Assembly (NCBI GenBank): GCA_030604405.1
Contig: JAUVVY010000008.1
Span: forward strand, 1-64,000
Direction of reading: 5' to 3'
Length of the DNA stretch: 64,000 nt
Source of the DNA: a bacterium
Lineage (GTDB): Bacteria; Armatimonadota; Zipacnadia; Zipacnadales; UBA11051
The notes below the pieces were generated by a model. The model searched no databases. It saw only the letters and a program-made list of their open reading frames with translations, and was not told the DNA's origin. Made by a program: the position numbers and the translations under genes. Shown one piece after another: positions 35,356-45,327 of this stretch. How positions within the stretch are numbered: position 1 is the stretch's first letter; every line of letters begins with the position of its first letter.

Positions 35356-36759
35356 ATGGACTGGCTTACGGACAGTGAAGTCGAGCAGATAAATGAGGCC
35401 AGCCTGGATGTTCTGGCCGAAACCGGCATCATGTTCGAATCTGAGTCGGTGCGCGCACTGCTACTGCAAAATGGCTGCAACGCGGGGCAGAAGGCTGACG
35501 TGATCCGGATCCCCCGGGAGCTTGTGTACGACTGCGTCCTGCAAGCGCCGGAGCGTATCAAGCTGGCCTCGCTGGACGGCTCGGTTGTTGAGATCGGTGC
35601 GGGCCGCCCGCCGGTGTATTGGACCGGCAATGCCCTGTACTTTGACGAGGGACGGACAATCCGGCCTATCGAAAAGCGCGACTTCATCAGCCTGTGCCGG
35701 GTGGCGCAGGAGCTGGCGATGATCCACGCTACGGTCGGCACCTCGCTAGCCGACTATCCGCCCTACAGCCGCGGTTTCGTCGCTCTGCGCATCATGGCGC
35801 AATACAGCACAAAGCACCTGCGGCCCTGCATCTACACGCCTGAGGGCACGGTGGCGATGCGCGAGATGGCGGAGGTGCTGGTCGGTAGCCAGGCGCTCTC
35901 CGCAAAGCCGATCTTCAGCCTCGGCTTCACCGCCGTCAGCCCTCTGCGCTGGTCGGCGATGGGCCTGGATTCGTTCGAGAAGAGCTCCGGCTACGGGATC
36001 CCGATCATGGTCAACTCCGAGCCCGTGGCGGGGGCGACGGGGCCGGTCACTCTCGCCGGCGCGCTGACGATTGCCAATGCAGAGGCCCTTGCGGGCGTGG
36101 TGGTGGTGCAGCTTCTGGAGCCCGGCCGGCCGACCATCTTCAACCTCGGCTTTACCCATACCATGGACATGAAAACCGCCGTGACGCGCACCGGCGGCCC
36201 GGAGTGTACGCTGATCCAATCTGCGGGTGCGCAGCTTGCCCGCTTCCACGGCATGCCCAGCGCGTCGTGGTCGAGTACCGAGAGCATGATGGCCGACGCG
36301 CAGGCCTCATACGAGAGCCTGCTGACTGGACTGACCCATGCCATCAGCGGCGTCAATATCATCTGGGGCGTGGGCACTCTCGAATCCACGCGCGTGATGT
36401 CGCTGCCGCAAATGGTCATAGATGACGAGCTGGCGCGCATGGCCAGTCGCGTGGCGGCAGGCATTGAGGTCAGCGAGGAAACAATCGCCCGCGATGTCAT
36501 CATGGAGATGGGCACCCAGGCCCAGTACCTGGCCGGCGACCATACGCTCGAGCATTTCCGGGAGCTGATAGACCCGCAGATTATCTACACCGGCCAGCGC
36601 GAGGGCTGGGAGCAGCGCGGCAGCACGAGCCTGCCCGAGGCGGCGCTGGCGAAGGCCGAAGAGATCCTCTGCGGCGAGCCGCAGATGCTGATTGACGAGG
36701 ACACCGATGCCGAGCTGGCGGCTATCGAAAACAGATACATGGAGAAGCTGACAACCTGA
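35356..36759 (+). CDS. MttB/MtgB-like corrinoid-dependent methyltransferase, non-pyrrolysine
   Basis: 467 residues of the trimethylamine methyltransferase superfamily (the non-pyrrolysine branch includes glycine-betaine methyltransferase MtgB). Family signatures: NEASLDVLAETGI (about 13-25), PVYWTGNALYFDEG, GFTAVSPLRWS, VNSEPVAGATGPVTLAGALT (about 218-237), LGFTHTMDMKTA and PSASWSSTESM; the barrel is complete. There is no in-frame amber codon, so it does not use pyrrolysine. The methylated substrate is unknown. No corrinoid protein (MtbC/MtgC-like), MtrH-like or activase gene is in the window. A GAGGTG lies six bases before ATG 35356. Its last codon TGA abuts the stop of the convergent ceramidase-like gene at 36760 (TGATCA). 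Confidence 0.9.
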   Translation: MDWLTDSEVEQINEASLDVLAETGIMFESESVRALLLQNGCNAGQKADVIRIPRELVYDCVLQAPERIKLASLDGSVVEIGAGRPPVYWTGNALYFDEGRTIRPIEKRDFISLCRVAQELAMIHATVGTSLADYPPYSRGFVALRIMAQYSTKHLRPCIYTPEGTVAMREMAEVLVGSQALSAKPIFSLGFTAVSPLRWSAMGLDSFEKSSGYGIPIMVNSEPVAGATGPVTLAGALTIANAEALAGVVVVQLLEPGRPTIFNLGFTHTMDMKTAVTRTGGPECTLIQSAGAQLARFHGMPSASWSSTESMMADAQASYESLLTGLTHAISGVNIIWGVGTLESTRVMSLPQMVIDDELARMASRVAAGIEVSEETIARDVIMEMGTQAQYLAGDHTLEHFRELIDPQIIYTGQREGWEQRGSTSLPEAALAKAEEILCGEPQMLIDEDTDAELAAIENRYMEKLTT

Positions 36760-38711: not shown

Positions 38712-39707
38712 TCAGACGGTCAGCGTCAATTCGCCGTCCGGCAGCCACTGCCGCAGATAGTCGCTGCTAATCTTCAGCTCAGAAAGCAGGTCGGCTTCAT
38801 TCTTGGTCGAGCCGGGGATGATTTCGGCGATAAGGAAGCTGTGGTCCACCGGCTCCAGATATTCGCTGATCGGACTGTTCTGTGCATTTTCGTGGCCGGT
38901 CTGAACTGCCTCCAGCAGCGGCTCGATTTCGATGTGCCCCCTGGCGTTGTACTCTTCTGTGAACGCCCAATGGTGCGAGCTTTCGGGTGTGGTCTGCTGC
39001 AGGTGGATGATTTCGGCGAACGGTGCCAGCCGCCGCGTCCATTCCAGGTGGTCCAGGTCCTCGCCCCGCAGACCGTAGCACATCCCGGCCATGTGCCCGA
39101 CATCAATGGTCAGATAGACGGGTATCGCGGGCCTCTGCTTGTTGATACCGATGAGAATATACTCGGCCTGCTGCATCGTCCACGGCACCTCGGAGGGGAT
39201 GTACATCTGCTCCAGGTAGATGGCGCCGATGCCCTTCTCCGCTCCGACATTGGCCAACTCGACGAGGGTGTCGCAGAGCCGGTCTATGGCGGCCTGATAG
39301 GAGCTTTCGTCCGCCATGACTTCCACGGAGATGGCATCCCAGTGGCCGCCGACGCGATCGGTGCCGATCGCCAGCGCGATGTCCATGGTCTGGTATATCC
39401 ACTGCTTCATCCGCTCGCGGCACGAAGCATCATAATGGGAAAGCCCGTGGAAGCGGTGTGTCGCCACACCTGTATAGACATCTGTGATATACACGCCGTA
39501 CTTTTCAGCGGCGGCTTTGACCTGCCCGGCGGTGCGCAACTGGTACTCGCGGTCGCCGGAGAAGAACGGGTCAATGACATCGGCGCAGAATTCGTGGGCG
39601 TCATACCCGATCTCTTTGGTCAACCGCATCCAGTTGTCCGGCTGCTCCCAGCGTCGGGTGATAAATGCTCCATTTACGCCCAGTTCCAACCTGACTTCTC
39701 GTGACAT
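38712..39707 (-). CDS. Sugar-phosphate isomerase/epimerase-like TIM barrel
   Basis: 331 residues of the xylose-isomerase-like/AP-endonuclease-2 barrel family. Catalytic-type residues: Glu in EFCADVIDPFF (about 40), His in ATHRFHGLSHYD (about 84), Glu in YLEQMYIPSE (about 166), Asp-x-x-His in LTIDVGHMAGM (about 202), and a final Glu near TEEYN. The nearest known types act on tetrose or pentose phosphates or keto-sugars, but the substrate is not evident. ATG 39707 with GGTGA six bases upstream. It is separated by 80 bp from the membrane gene on the same strand. Confidence 0.8.
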   Translation of the reverse strand: MSREVRLELGVNGAFITRRWEQPDNWMRLTKEIGYDAHEFCADVIDPFFSGDREYQLRTAGQVKAAAEKYGVYITDVYTGVATHRFHGLSHYDASCRERMKQWIYQTMDIALAIGTDRVGGHWDAISVEVMADESSYQAAIDRLCDTLVELANVGAEKGIGAIYLEQMYIPSEVPWTMQQAEYILIGINKQRPAIPVYLTIDVGHMAGMCYGLRGEDLDHLEWTRRLAPFAEIIHLQQTTPESSHHWAFTEEYNARGHIEIEPLLEAVQTGHENAQNSPISEYLEPVDHSFLIAEIIPGSTKNEADLLSELKISSDYLRQWLPDGELTLTV

Positions 39708-39737
39708 TTCCAATCACCGCAGTAACGATTTAGTTTG

Positions 39738-40076
39738 ATTTCAGCCGCCGGCGCTGTGGGTACGTTGCAGGCATCAACATCGCCCACCAGCGCCGCCGCG
39801 CGTTTCATTCCCCGGTGGCTTACAGTTCCAGGGCCACATTTCTCTGTCCGGCGGTCAAGCGCCTGCTGCTGTGGGGCAAAAAGCGCGCTTTGACCTGTCT
39901 ATTGGCGGGCCAGATGCCGCGCATTGCGGCTCGCCGTTATTGGATTCACCGCGCGGGAACATTTACGATAAATCTTTGTTAAACATTGATTTGCTGCTTG
40001 ACTAACACGCCGCGGTACAGGTATGCTATAGGCCGCATACAGAGTTGCTGCACATGCTGCCTGGGAGCGAGAAGCG
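39738..40076. other. Divergent intergenic region with a promoter for the PEP-CTERM gene
   Basis: About 340 bp. The right half is AT-rich (ATTTACGATAAATC near 39961) and holds TTGACT (39998-40003), an 18-bp spacer and TATGCT (40022-40027) pointing at the PEP-CTERM gene. The left part has no ORF or repeat that I recognise. Confidence 0.5.
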
Positions 40077-41102
40077 TTGCTCGGTAGAAAACTGCTCGTT
40101 GCATTTGTATTAGCATTGGGGCTGAGCGTATCGGCTGTCCATGCCGATTCTTACTTTTACGGTGTTGGCAACGACGAGGCCTGGTATGGCAGCCACGAGA
40201 TCTGGATGGAACTCGAGGATCTCCCCGAGTGGCACATCAATCGCTGTGCCAGTTGGGCCAACCGCCGCGGGTGGGACACGAGCGCTTCGATCTACACAGA
40301 TATTCAGGGCTATGCCAGCAGCCTCGAGGCGGGCGATGTGTTTCTGTTCTCGTATATGGGCCACGGCGGTTGGGATTGGCCTGACGCTAACAGCGATGAG
40401 GGCAGCACTAGCCGACCCGACTCGAACGACCCGACCCCGCCCAACCCTCCGCCCTACACCGGCGATGAAAGCATCGGGCGCTCTGGCGACTCCTCGACCT
40501 ATTGGATGCGGGATGACCAACTCGCCGATGCTTTCGCGGACTTCGATTCAGGCGTTGAGGTAGTCGTCATCTCGGGCGCCTGTCACTCCGGGGGGTTGGT
40601 CGGCGGCAGCAGCGACATTGACTACAGCGTCCCGGCTGGTAACGATGGCCTGTACGCGATGCTGGGAGCACCCGAGCATGGTACTAGTGTAGGTTATTAC
40701 GCCGGCTACAGTGAGACTTTTGGGGACTACTACAGACCCCTCCTGAGCGAGGCACTCCTCGCAACCCTCGAGCCAAACATTAGCTTTCCCGAATGGTACG
40801 ATGCCGCAATGACACACGGGGAAACACAGACGCACGAAACCAACGTGCCGTGGCAGGAGGAGAATCTCTTTCTGGAGTTTTGGCCGGAGTCCGAGTGGGT
40901 GCCGACTACGCAGGAAGAGACCTGGTACACCGACCACTGGGGGTGGCAGGAGTCTTATGCCCAACTCCGCCCCATCGAATACAACAGCCTCGACTCATCG
41001 CACGACCACCTGGTCGGCACGCCCGAACCGACAAGCACGAGTCTTGTGATTCTGGTCCTGCTGGGGGTAAGCGCCAAGCTGCGGAGGCGCAAGCAGAGCT
41101 AA
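40077..41102 (+). CDS. Exported caspase-like protein with PEP-CTERM sorting tail
   Basis: 341 residues. A signal peptide (LLVAFVLALGLSVSAVHA, residues about 5-22) is followed by a caspase/gingipain-type fold: FLFSYMGHGGWDWPD holds the catalytic-type His (about 98) and VVVISGACHSGGLVGG the Cys (about 166; SGACHSG is the usual caspase-family cysteine block). The C terminus is a PEP-CTERM signal: GTPEPTSTS, then a helix (LVILVLLGVSAKL) and RRRKQS. PEP-CTERM proteins are processed by exosortase and held at or released from the envelope; no exosortase gene is here. TTG 40077 with GGGAG nine bases upstream, a clear promoter, and a terminator at 41132 make it a single-gene unit. Confidence 0.85.
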   Translation: MLGRKLLVAFVLALGLSVSAVHADSYFYGVGNDEAWYGSHEIWMELEDLPEWHINRCASWANRRGWDTSASIYTDIQGYASSLEAGDVFLFSYMGHGGWDWPDANSDEGSTSRPDSNDPTPPNPPPYTGDESIGRSGDSSTYWMRDDQLADAFADFDSGVEVVVISGACHSGGLVGGSSDIDYSVPAGNDGLYAMLGAPEHGTSVGYYAGYSETFGDYYRPLLSEALLATLEPNISFPEWYDAAMTHGETQTHETNVPWQEENLFLEFWPESEWVPTTQEETWYTDHWGWQESYAQLRPIEYNSLDSSHDHLVGTPEPTSTSLVILVLLGVSAKLRRRKQS

Positions 41103-41131
41103 GCGCGGTTGTGAAATATCGTCAACACAAT

Positions 41132-41164
41132 GGCTCAGGCAAGATGCCTGAGCCGTTTTCTTTT
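41132..41164 (+). terminator. Intrinsic terminator after the PEP-CTERM gene
   Basis: GGCTCAGGCA (41132-41141), loop AGA, TGCCTGAGCC (41145-41154), then GTTTTCTTTT: a 10-bp perfect stem with a good U-tract. Confidence 0.9.
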
Positions 41165-41241: not shown

Positions 41242-44200
41242 TCATTTAGCAGGCGGCGACCAAGGCAGTTGCTGCTGGTTGTCGCCGATTGTGAGCGTAA
41301 CGTCGTCAGTGGCCGTAACTTGCAGCTTGCCGGTCTCGTCCACGCTCAGCGCTGCCCAGTTGTAAATGACGAACTCATCGCCGGCCTGCAGGTCGTAGTA
41401 GTAGAAGCTATCGCCGGCTTTGAGCCCGGCCGTGGACAGCACACGAACCTCAAACGGCTGCGCGTACTTGGCGCTGATGATATTGGTAGTGATCTGGCCG
41501 TCTTCAGACCTCAGCAGCTTGCCGTCGAAGAAGTTGACGCCTCCACGAGTCAGCCCTCGCGCATAGTCATGTGCGGTAAGGCTGTACAGGAGGTGGTCGT
41601 CGAGCGGGTCCTCGTGCACGGTGCCCTGGCCCAGGATGATTCTCTGCGTGCCGAGGTCTATGACGGACAGGTTGCCCTCTTGGCTGACGCCGTGGATTGT
41701 GTAGGCGGTGTTACGAGTATAGGCCGGGTTGTTGAACGCGACGGTCTGGTAGTCAAGCCGGCCGTCGGTGGGCAGTTCGGTGTCAACATAGACGAGGTTC
41801 TTTTGATAGTCAATCCGCACTATCTTGCCGCTGTGCTGGCCGTTGGCAAGCTCCATAGTGAAGCCGGGGCCATTCAGCAATTTGCCGACAAGATGGGCCT
41901 CAACTACCTCTCCGGCATCGCTGCGCAGGCGGCTGAAGCAGCCGTCGAGTTCGATGTCGCCGCAGGTAACATTCTTAAGCGGCGTGCCCGCATAGACGAA
42001 GCGATCCACCAGGCCGCTGACGTGTTTCACTGCCAGGGCGACAGTGCCTTCGGGTGCAGGTAGCTTTTCCACAGCCCCGATGAATGGGCTGGCCTGGGTC
42101 GCTTGTTGCTCTGGCTTTGTTTGCGTCAAGCTGATTGCCTTGATGGAGATCCAGGGTTGGCCGCCCTCGAACTCGACAGTCCTGACGGTCAGGCGGTGCT
42201 TGCCGGCCTTGAGGTCCATGGGGCCGAGTATCTGCAAGGGGCCCTGCTTGACAGAGGGGCTGTTGGCCACAAACGGCTCGCCGACTGCTTTGCCATCAAG
42301 AATGAACTGCGCGGCGCCATAGTTGGGAGACATGTACGGGGCGATGATCAGATAATAGGCTCCGTCGGCGGGTGTCTGCAGATCGAAGTGGACTTCGCCA
42401 CCGAATTCCTGGGCCTGGAACAACACGATGCCGTAGCTGCCCAGATACTTGATAATGCCGTCTTCGGTGCTCACGATTGACATCAGGTCGGCAGCTTGGA
42501 TGCCACCTGCCTCGACGGGTACGGGGCCATACGGCTCGCGGATGGCCACGAACGTGCTTTTCAGCGGCCCGCTGTCGGAAACGCGCCGGGCCATGATGTG
42601 CTCGGCTTTCGGATTCTGCGGATACGTCCCCGGGGCCCAGGCGTTGATAACTTCGGTGTCCTCCTGCGGGAGCATCGTCAGCCGCATGTAGTTGTTGCCC
42701 TCGGGGAGTTTCCAGGTGGCCGACCACGGGCCGACAGCTTGGCCGCGACGCGGGTGCATCATGAAACCGAGACCGTTGGCCGGCGGCGGCCGCCAGTACG
42801 GCCTTTGGGGCACACCGCTCATAAAGCCGTCATTGAGCTGTCGCTCGCCCCAGTTGAACTCCGGCCCGGCCACCGAGCCCTCCTCGCGCTCGCCCAACTC
42901 CACGCCCGCGAAGCCGATGTCTGTTGACAGCGAATGGGCCACGTAGTCATGCTGCTGGCCGCCCTCGACGTTGAAGATGTCCAGCAGGTAGCTGTCCGGC
43001 CCGTCGCCGACCAGGGCCAGGAAGCGCCGATAGACTTCGACGCCGCGCGAGGCGTAGCAGTTGTTGGCATCCGCGTCCACCACTTGCATGCCGGGCATGG
43101 CCGCCAGTAGATGCAGGCTGCCGCCGCTGTCATCGCCTTCGCCGGTAAGCTGGCAGGCTTCATCAACCAGGACCAGTTGGTGGGAGGCCGTCTGCTTGGA
43201 CCAGCCGACCTGCGTATGCGTCGAGCCGTTGCCATAGCCGAGGTCATAAGTGAGTTCGTAGCCCAGGCCGAAGTAGTTGATGTTGAGATCATCGTAATGC
43301 CCGTGATTGAGCACCGGCCCGTAGCGCAGCAGACATGCCTGGGCCATCTTACTGTGAGGTGTCCGCAAGATGGCGATGCCTTTTTGGCCCATTAGAGTCG
43401 TCTCGGAGGCCATTCGTTGCAGGCGCTGGGAAATTGGCTCGTCGGAATCCGGCACCTTGTCGGCATGGAAAAGCAGCCACTCTTTGTCCCGCGAGCCGGC
43501 GCGGACCTTGTCCAGATTGCCCCCTGCAAAGAAGTTCACCAGGGCACCGAATGCGTTTTCGACCTCCGAGGCGGTCGTCCGGATGAATATTCTTTCAGCG
43601 TACGCGTAGTCAGTTGGATCAAACATCCTGGCGGACGGATAGGCGTGGCTGCTGTCAGGCCCGCTGTCACCGTAGCGCGGCCAGTGCCCGGTGCAGTCCA
43701 TCGAAAGCTTGGGCAGCACGTAGAAACTGCGGAAAGAGGCGTCGTCATAGAGATTGAGGCCCTCGGGGTACTTCTCGCTGCGGTAGTTGATTAGCGGCTC
43801 GGCGAAGGTAAGATACAGACTGCGGGCGTGCACGGCATAGCCCAGCGAGCTCTCGATATACCTGCCGTTACGGTCGGCGTTGTTATAGACCATCGCGTAA
43901 ATGCCGTACGGCCCGTCAACCGCCCAATCCACGTATGCTTCGATGCCTAAGAGGCACCCGACCGACAAAGCGCCACGCACATAGTCCGCCTCGCCGTTGT
44001 GCATACCGCCCTTCAGCGACTGCTCGTAGCAGTACCAGGCGCCGTTCTTGAGCATGTTTGCTTCGATATTCTCGCGCCGCGTCAACCCCTCGACAAAGGA
44101 CGGCTCATCGAGGGCGGGACTGTTGTAGATCTTGTCGTAGTAGTCAACCAGGGTGACCAACACGCGCGACACCTGGTACCAGGGCCGGCATAGCCGTCCG

Positions 44201-45327
44201 CTCGGCGGGCTGGACGGATAGTCCCACGAGCCGGCGTCGCAGGACGGGTAGATTTCAGCGATCGCATCCAGCAGTACGGCGGCTGTCTTTGCATACTCCT
44301 CCTCGCCGGTGATGATATAGGCGAATGACAGCCATCTGCACCATTTCTGGTAAGTCTCCACAACCCAGGCGTTGTATGAGCCGACAAAGTAGTGGATGCG
44401 GCCGTCTTCGGCGACATAACCGGTGCCGTCGTCGGGGTGATCGGCATCAGGCAGGATGTGGCCGCTGCGACACTTCACGGTTCCGGGCCGCTCAAAGCTG
44501 CAGTTGGCGCCGCCCCACGAGCCCCATTTTGCCCCGCAGATGGGACAACCCGTGAACCCGTAGGCAAATGCGGTGCCTTTTCCGGGGCAGTTCTCGCGTA
44601 TCCACGCAGGGTCCTTGTCCACGACCCCGTCAGCAGCCGCAATGATGCCCTCAGCGTGCTTCTTTGCCCAGTCATGCTTCTCAATGTTTTGCTTCGCCCG
44701 CTCCACATCATCTGGCGTGATATATACGCACGGGTGCGATTCGCGTCCAGTCTCTGTCAAATTCACCTGTTGCCACCTCTTCTTTGGCGGTACTTTGATT
44801 CCGATCTCTTTGTCAGGGTCATAGAACGCCAGCACTTCCCGGGCCGCGTAATAGACCTTCTCTTCGTAGCTCTCCACGATATTTATCTGGAACCATTCGG
44901 TTGTTGTTTGGGGGAACCGGATGATGAACGCCCCCGGGCGGTCCTCAAGCTGCTCGCTGACAGAGCTGCCGTCGGAGAATTCGATCGCCACCCGCTTCCA
45001 GTTGGTGTATATGGCCGGGTTCTCGGCCAGCACCACAATGATGGTATCCAGCTTCGCCGGTTTGTCGAAGCTGACCTTGATCCACTGGGGGAGCTTGAGG
45101 TTGCTTCCGCTGGCCCACCAGGTGCTCAGGTCCTCATCATTCAGCGATTCAAAGGAGTACTTTTGCCCCGGCTTGCCGGCCGCCGAGGAGACCTCGATCT
45201 GGGCATCGCCGACCAGATTCGTGCCCGCCTTGTAGGTTATCAGGTGCCTCGCGGTCTGCGCGGCCGACATAGCGCACGTAAACATGGACACAACCAGTAA
45301 AATCCCAACAACAATGCCGCTACGCAT
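41242..45327 (-). CDS. Heparinase II/III-like secreted multidomain polysaccharide lyase
   Basis: 1361 residues. Signal peptide (MRSGIVVGILLVVSMFTCAM then SAAQ). Residues about 45-165 form a discoidin-like domain (LNDEDLSTWWASGSNLKLPQ). A helical toroid follows, with the Cys-rich block TGCPICGAKWGSWGG, KCRSGH (about 262-295; two Cys pairs, zinc-ribbon like). The lyase beta-sandwich core has RYGPVLNHGHYDDLNINYFG (about 668-687; His/Tyr pair), LTYDLGYGNGSTHTQ, TASHQLVLVDE. Lectin-like beta domains occupy the last 400 residues. The substrate is presumably an acidic glycan. GGAGG lies about six bases before ATG 45327. It ends at 41242 in contact with the amidohydrolase remnant. Confidence 0.85.
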   Translation of the reverse strand: MRSGIVVGILLVVSMFTCAMSAAQTARHLITYKAGTNLVGDAQIEVSSAAGKPGQKYSFESLNDEDLSTWWASGSNLKLPQWIKVSFDKPAKLDTIIVVLAENPAIYTNWKRVAIEFSDGSSVSEQLEDRPGAFIIRFPQTTTEWFQINIVESYEEKVYYAAREVLAFYDPDKEIGIKVPPKKRWQQVNLTETGRESHPCVYITPDDVERAKQNIEKHDWAKKHAEGIIAAADGVVDKDPAWIRENCPGKGTAFAYGFTGCPICGAKWGSWGGANCSFERPGTVKCRSGHILPDADHPDDGTGYVAEDGRIHYFVGSYNAWVVETYQKWCRWLSFAYIITGEEEYAKTAAVLLDAIAEIYPSCDAGSWDYPSSPPSGRLCRPWYQVSRVLVTLVDYYDKIYNSPALDEPSFVEGLTRRENIEANMLKNGAWYCYEQSLKGGMHNGEADYVRGALSVGCLLGIEAYVDWAVDGPYGIYAMVYNNADRNGRYIESSLGYAVHARSLYLTFAEPLINYRSEKYPEGLNLYDDASFRSFYVLPKLSMDCTGHWPRYGDSGPDSSHAYPSARMFDPTDYAYAERIFIRTTASEVENAFGALVNFFAGGNLDKVRAGSRDKEWLLFHADKVPDSDEPISQRLQRMASETTLMGQKGIAILRTPHSKMAQACLLRYGPVLNHGHYDDLNINYFGLGYELTYDLGYGNGSTHTQVGWSKQTASHQLVLVDEACQLTGEGDDSGGSLHLLAAMPGMQVVDADANNCYASRGVEVYRRFLALVGDGPDSYLLDIFNVEGGQQHDYVAHSLSTDIGFAGVELGEREEGSVAGPEFNWGERQLNDGFMSGVPQRPYWRPPPANGLGFMMHPRRGQAVGPWSATWKLPEGNNYMRLTMLPQEDTEVINAWAPGTYPQNPKAEHIMARRVSDSGPLKSTFVAIREPYGPVPVEAGGIQAADLMSIVSTEDGIIKYLGSYGIVLFQAQEFGGEVHFDLQTPADGAYYLIIAPYMSPNYGAAQFILDGKAVGEPFVANSPSVKQGPLQILGPMDLKAGKHRLTVRTVEFEGGQPWISIKAISLTQTKPEQQATQASPFIGAVEKLPAPEGTVALAVKHVSGLVDRFVYAGTPLKNVTCGDIELDGCFSRLRSDAGEVVEAHLVGKLLNGPGFTMELANGQHSGKIVRIDYQKNLVYVDTELPTDGRLDYQTVAFNNPAYTRNTAYTIHGVSQEGNLSVIDLGTQRIILGQGTVHEDPLDDHLLYSLTAHDYARGLTRGGVNFFDGKLLRSEDGQITTNIISAKYAQPFEVRVLSTAGLKAGDSFYYYDLQAGDEFVIYNWAALSVDETGKLQVTATDDVTLTIGDNQQQLPWSPPAK

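Follow-up and report, generated by a model that had tools for sequence, protein, structure and literature searches.

The protease gene and its surroundings

The window, by which we mean the whole 64,000-nucleotide stretch of DNA analyzed, carries on its forward strand an open reading frame for a caspase-like protease with a PEP-CTERM tail, lying at 40077-41102 as the initial annotation reported (Table 1). Nine bases ahead of its TTG start stands GGGAG. The G+C content by codon position (59/48/71%) and the homologues in six other genomes indicate that the frame is coding and did not arise by chance. The nearest genes on either side, one for a xylose-isomerase-like TIM-barrel protein (38712-39713) and one for a protein of 1361 residues (41242-45327), are both on the opposite (-) strand, and the protease gene is therefore a lone transcription unit. 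It had been described as a self-contained unit of promoter, gene and terminator. The gene does stand alone, and the hairpin at 41129-41157 makes a good candidate for the terminator, but the promoter part holds less well: the consensus scan found three promoter-like sites where 1.2 were expected in the region, and the match at 39998-40027 is weak evidence.

The 1361-residue product of the downstream neighbor looks exported, a weak match to DUF7402 being its only one. Elsewhere in the window (35356-36759) lies a gene for an MTTB-family methyltransferase of 467 aa (PF06253, 251 bits), probably a non-pyrrolysine member since it contains no in-frame stop codon.

Table 1. Features of the protease gene and its flanks, in window coordinates
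Feature	Position	Strand	Basis
Possible sigma-70-type promoter, TTGACT-18-TATGCT	39998..40027	+	Consensus scan, 9/12 matches
PEP-CTERM caspase-like protease gene	40077..41102	+	341 aa, TTG start, TAA stop; orthologues
Signal peptide (residues 1-23), probably cleaved after Ala23	40077..40145	+	Read from sequence
Caspase-fold core, residues 24-252	40146..40832	+	Profile match to 3bij/metacaspases; AlphaFold2 models, fold searches
Catalytic His96 codon (GHGG)	40362..40364	+	9/9 relatives covering the site; aligns to metacaspase YSGHG
Acidic stretch, D130 to D146-D147	40464..40517	+	Spacing matches metacaspase calcium-site aspartates
Catalytic Cys169 codon (GACHSGG)	40581..40583	+	10/10 aligned relatives; aligns to AtMCA4 Cys139
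DHWGWQESYAQLRP motif, residues 286-299	40932..40973	+	Alignments A1 and A2
PEP-CTERM sorting tail: PEP, hydrophobic stretch, RRRK	41019..41093	+	TIGR02595 above cut-off
Intrinsic-terminator-like hairpin	41129..41157	+	13 pairs, loop 3, T-rich tail

A caspase fold close to metacaspases

In a single-sequence search of solved structures, the best match was the caspase-like protein GSU0716 of Geobacter sulfurreducens (PDB 3bij; E 1.3e-5), with the His and Cys segments aligned. A profile built from ten relatives (alignment A2) recovered the same structure at E 1.9e-9 and metacaspase-4 at E 1.8e-8; of its 11 PDB matches at E<=10, ten were metacaspases and the remaining one was 3bij. Alignment A2 was made without L028, whose gene is broken across two frames, and without L029, a large multi-domain protein; L023, a fragment from another gene split over two frames, contributed its longer piece to A2 and was omitted from A3. 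The Pfam caspase model PF00656 gave no match to the window protein at E<=10 and reached 28.5 bits, over its cut-off of 21.4, with the relative L026.

Structure prediction with AlphaFold2 yielded models of modest confidence for the full-length protein (mean pLDDT 52.5, pTM 0.62) and for the core (mean pLDDT 61.5, pTM 0.68), both with secondary structure in caspase order. Foldseek returned 3bij as the best match of each (E 2.4e-4 for the full length, 4.5e-5 for the core), with metacaspases also among the first. VIA-align placed 6w8r first for the full-length model (Z 13.4, rmsd 3.7, 204 residues) and 7qp1 for the core (Z 12.0, rmsd 4.0, 181 residues), metacaspases leading both lists and legumains coming next. 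Support for the caspase fold is good, because both models return metacaspases or 3bij first in the two kinds of comparison. Judged by sequence profiles and predicted models, the window protein groups with the metacaspases (C14, clan CD), with GSU0716 and Arabidopsis metacaspase-4 as its nearest relatives of solved structure.

The initial annotation had spoken of a caspase/gingipain fold. The caspase half of this description stands, whereas nothing points to a gingipain: C25 gave no Pfam match and none among the structural matches listed, although absence from such a list is no proof. Gingipains are also clan CD peptidases and carry a C-terminal signal that directs them to the cell surface, their route being the T9SS. 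The window protein resembles them in a predicted surface route through a C-terminal signal but differs in both family and route.

Predicted active site and putative calcium site

Both catalytic motifs previously claimed, MGHGG with His96 and SGACHSGG with Cys169, are present. In the profile alignment, His96 falls on the GHG histidine of Arabidopsis metacaspase-4 and Cys169 on its catalytic Cys139, which has been changed to Ala in structure 6w8r (C139A); in the AlphaFold2 models, each of the two residues follows a predicted strand, in the H-G and C-x-x-G settings expected of clan CD. As far as fold and strand order show, the outcome that would have counted against the initial annotation, a model lacking a His-Cys dyad in one pocket, did not arise. 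They are kept even in relatives about 20% identical to the window protein. One orthologue, L020, carries the His in SHGE in place of GHGG.

The title of structure 4afr names the mutant C213A, and Cys213 is the catalytic residue of TbMCA2. Metacaspases are activated by calcium, and the TbMCA2 residues given for the calcium site are Asp173, Asp189, Asp190 and Asp220, and those for the S1 pocket Cys92, Asp95, Ser156 and Asp211 (PMC4357240). By spacing, D130, D146 and D147 of the window protein correspond to Asp173, Asp189 and Asp190, with 16 residues from D130 to D146 as from Asp173 to Asp189. Across the ten aligned rows (seven from Zipacnadia and three deltaproteobacterial), D130 is found in nine, and D146, D147 and D180 in all. 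The fourth ligand, Asp220 at Cys+7, is Gly in 10/10 rows; the invariant D180, at Cys+11, is a possible substitute for it. Most of the acidic residues that form the calcium site in metacaspases thus appear, from the alignment, to be retained.

The S1 pocket seems to have changed. At Cys-2, the place of TbMCA2 Asp211, the window protein has Gly, six of the seven Zipacnadia rows have Gly or Ala, and Asp occurs in four of the ten rows, namely L024 and all three deltaproteobacterial ones. Because Gly replaces this S1 Asp, the P1 preference would be other than the Arg/Lys of metacaspases. We infer a calcium-dependent enzyme with a changed P1 preference.

Compared with metacaspases of C14 subfamily B (AtMCA4, Yca1 and TbMCA2), the window protein is alike in the fold, the His-Cys dyad, the DD before a helix and, in part, the acidic calcium-site positions. 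It differs in its predicted export with a sorting tail, in the S1 Asp at Cys-2 that 6/7 Zipacnadia proteins lack, in a long insert, rich in Pro and Asn, that separates His from Cys, and in a Trp-rich C-terminal motif. The DHWGWQESYAQLRP motif, which comes after the core, is conserved in the Zipacnadia proteins and missing from the deltaproteobacterial rows. GSU0716, unlike the window protein, retains Asp at Cys-2 (SDSCHSG) and has a shorter stretch from His to Cys. The closest NCBIfam caspase model is NF047832 (EACC1-associated caspases), which 7/10 members match below threshold, with scores far under the cut-off.

Signal peptide, sorting tail and exosortase

The signal peptide claimed for this protein is visible by eye as a Sec-type sequence, MLGRKLLVAFVLALGLSVSAVHA, followed at the cut by DS, and the Ala23 at the predicted cut site is an invariant column in alignment A1. 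When the protein is scanned on its own, its tail, TPEPTSTSLVILVLLGVSAKLRRRKQS, narrowly exceeds the cut-off of TIGR02595, the PEP-CTERM model of NCBIfam (16.6 bits, cut-off 16); it scores 21.6 bits in the genome-wide search with that model, and falls short of the Pfam model PF07589 (10.4 bits, cut-off 20.7). Four orthologues scanned singly (L019, L020, L022 and L024) all exceed the TIGR02595 cut-off, at 16.4 to 21.2 bits, and three of them also reach that of PF07589; these tails weigh more than the narrow pass of the window protein itself. The PEP-CTERM end proposed initially is thus upheld by TIGR02595, in the window protein and its orthologues. In L021 the sorting tail, TPEPATAGLLVIGLLGLRGFIRRRRA, is plain by eye, and the genome search listed no PEP-CTERM match for this gene at E<=0.01.

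The earlier remark that the window holds no exosortase gene proved correct, the sole match in the genome lying on contig C18. This gene (C18:46085-46849, E 8.9e-71) is of the XrtA type, with 219.6 bits against the XrtA model (cut-off 208). It is adjoined by an EpsI-like gene that scores 24.9 bits with TIGR02914, below the cut-off of 42.8, and 56.2 bits with PF11984/DUF3485, over the cut-off. Co-occurrence with EPS genes is accordingly partial: EpsI-like and mannosyltransferase-like genes are found near the exosortase, but no EPS polymer cluster is recognizable in 19 kb. Weak matches to Nif11 leaders near the exosortase were below cut-off and were disregarded. Also by the exosortase and EpsI-like genes (L060, 10578-14185; G000, C18) are a CHASE2-adenylate/guanylate cyclase and a FecR-domain protein, which possibly form a sensor for surface sorting.

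The genome of the window yields eight matches to the PEP-CTERM model, each of them above the cut-off, and the protease gene is one of these. In the control genomes, PEP-CTERM matches were found in 0/14 at E<=0.01 and in 7/14 at E<=1, two of these seven over the cut-off. A second sorted protease in the genome of the window is a PEP-CTERM-tailed subtilase (L015, G000:C48:18199-20617; Peptidase_S8, 184 bits), and three PEP-CTERM proteins on contigs C24 and C71 (L010, L012 and L013) consist of repeated SLALDSSGYAHISY-like units and are probably propeller-like surface proteins.

An exosortase is present in 6/7 genomes with an orthologue and in 38/41 genomes of the order, and since it is near-universal there, its co-occurrence with the protease gene is uninformative. 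Neither of two models found an exosortase in the genome G004, which carries an orthologue together with four PEP-CTERM matches; this is most simply explained by a gap in the assembly. The signal peptide and the tail of PEP, hydrophobic stretch and basic residues agree with those of EpsH/XrtA-sorted proteins (Haft et al. 2006, PMC1569441), and a further likeness to such systems is that the genome of the window has both an exosortase of the XrtA type and an EpsI-like gene. What differs from the PEP-CTERM proteins of that paper is the caspase-type peptidase domain; the word "caspase" is absent from its main text.

Distribution of the family

Six more genomes of the order carry orthologues with 39-51% identity (alignment A1), the hosts being MAGs of Candidatus Zipacnadia, or candidate division WS1, a class of Armatimonadota. 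Five of the six orthologue genes are open throughout; the one in G032 is split over two frames. A caspase gene divided in this way was seen both there (L023) and in L028 (G294), and reflects either a genuine frameshift or a mistake in the assembly. The window protein is the sole family match in its own genome (4.37 Mb, 96 contigs), and a single-sequence search of 61 genomes found 7 with a match at E<=0.001, its own included. The gene is patchy, with 2/5 genomes of the genus and 7/41 of the order carrying it.

In a wider contig collection, the single-sequence scan found no relative and the alignment-based scan of the same collection found 11 loci. The full-length A1 profile matched 17/41 genomes of the order, many by the tail alone, and we therefore rejected the reading of all its matches as family members. 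With a tail-less profile, 15/291 genomes of the phylum matched at E<=1e-6. Strong matches are confined to seven genomes, all of the order of the window (best E 8e-53 or lower), and the others are weak; G032 is counted among the seven in two pieces. Among 257 genomes of the order to which the L026 genome belongs, six matched at E<=1e-6, two of them strongly. A tblastn search of viral contigs returned no relative, so no phage link is seen.

Gene neighbors are common only within families (L019 with L024 and L020 with L021) and differ across them, which leaves no constant partner gene, and the neighbors indicate no substrate. A ceramidase-like gene adjoins the protease gene in L022 and lies 2 kb from it in the window, with 26.5% identity between the two; we took this as coincidence.

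Proposed function and alternatives

Bacterial metacaspases have mostly been treated as intracellular enzymes of death or stress. The features described here suggest that in this little-known sediment bacterium a caspase-type enzyme probably works outside the cell. The reading that we favor, and consider fairly probable, is that of a metacaspase-like cysteine endopeptidase, calcium dependent and of altered specificity, which is exported by Sec, sorted by XrtA and processes proteins of the envelope or matrix; its activity, location and substrate are deduced. The interpretation in the initial annotation is supported to this extent and is plausibly right.

According to this proposal, the protein would be exported by Sec and lose its signal peptide, as read from the sequence. 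Its C-terminal hydrophobic helix would then retain it until the XrtA-type exosortase cut at the PEP motif and sorted it to the surface; the exosortase gene is present, and the reaction is that of the PEP-CTERM/EpsH model. Outside the cytoplasm, calcium bound at the acidic site would open the His96-Cys169 site, as the conserved residues suggest, and the enzyme would be off inside the cell and on outside it. Calcium is plentiful outside cells and scarce inside them, and export would therefore act as the on-switch. The active enzyme may finally trim or cut surface and matrix proteins, possibly including other PEP-CTERM proteins and itself.

Alternatively, the protein might be a secreted digestive protease, belonging to a set of exported peptidases with which the cell feeds on protein detritus, with a PEP-CTERM tail that only keeps it near the cell, a reading that we regard as unlikely. 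It would suit the presence of a PEP-CTERM subtilase (S8; L015) in the same genome, the extracellular S8A peptidases and the S8B peptidases reported in Zipacnadia MAGs (PMC10290634), and the patchy occurrence (7/41) and family-dependent neighborhoods of the gene, which are as expected of an accessory gene. However, clan CD peptidases are described as usually narrow in P1 (PMC4357240), and such specificity fits processing better than digestion.

A role in regulated death, fratricide or defense, of the kind proposed for bacterial metacaspases but exerted from outside the cell, seems improbable. It has been suggested that metacaspases with N-terminal helices might act at the surface or on neighboring cells (PMC3501461), and the model for EACC1-associated caspases gives matches below threshold; these, however, fall far short of the 140-bit cut-off of that model, domains for effector, immunity or sensing functions are absent, and no defense gene was recognized among the Pfam-scanned neighbors. 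Even less credence is due to a transpeptidase or maturation enzyme in the style of legumain or GPI transamidase, acting on sorting tails or the termini of surface proteins. Legumain and plant peptide ligases do come close behind the metacaspases with both models (Z about 10-11), the GPI transamidase subunit is likewise close in the full-length-model list, 3/10 members have weak C13 matches, and the window protein is itself cargo of a sorting system. Yet these structural likenesses are common to clan CD, metacaspases are what the protein matches by sequence, and tails are already cut by the exosortase, which is present in many genomes without the protease gene. That the protein keeps the fold as a non-catalytic surface binder, as SHGE for GHGG in L020 and the lost S1-pocket residues might hint, is scarcely credible, given a His and Cys kept down to 20% identity that a binder would not need.

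Little is known about what PEP-CTERM cargo does enzymatically, and a sorted, caspase-type endopeptidase would be a concrete candidate for the proteolytic processing of a surface layer built by an exosortase. It would be predicted to depend on calcium and to prefer P1 residues other than Arg/Lys. Among the open-licence PMC papers searched, we found no description of a PEP-CTERM caspase; passages of one of them name caspase-family and PEP-CTERM proteins apart (PMC8929069). Each component is known, and their combination did not come up in the papers searched.

Recurrence of the caspase fold with a sorting tail

The order contains a second type of PEP-CTERM caspase-like protein, represented by L037 (G037), L048 (G026) and L049 (G018), which have GHG and DxCYAG motifs and pass TIGR02595 with 17.1, 18.4 and 26.3 bits, respectively. 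Outside the order, the distant relatives L025-L028, from MAGs labeled Deltaproteobacteria, Desulfobulbaceae and Proteobacteria, have signal-peptide-like starts and C-termini of the VPLP or VPIP type. Among L025, L026 and L027, only the tail of L026 passed a model (PF07589, 21.1 bits against a cut-off of 20.7); L025 and L027, scanned singly, had no tail-model match. An exosortase was found in two of the four genomes of these distant relatives, those of L025 and L027, but not in those of L026 and L028, despite their 11 and 8 PEP-CTERM matches.

With a second Zipacnadia group and tailed distant relatives, the pairing of caspase fold and sorting tail recurs, firmly within Zipacnadia and less firmly outside it. 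We tentatively raise the possibility, doubtful as it is, that bacteria with exosortases have more than once given a tail to a caspase-type peptidase, and that these proteins make up a surface-displayed, calcium-switched class with its own specificity that matures an exopolysaccharide-associated protein coat.

Within one genus, the slot between a D-Ala-D-Ala ligase gene and T2SSF (pilus-type) genes was seen to hold differing PEP-CTERM genes (L112-L116). The slot has a caspase in G018 (L112) and G026 (L115) and two other PEP-CTERM genes in G021 (L113), and no PEP-CTERM gene was seen in it in the G008 stretch (L116). In G032 (L114), a C39-like peptidase with PEP-CTERM stands beside T2SSF, the ligase being outside that stretch. 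This position looks like a slot for exchangeable cargo.
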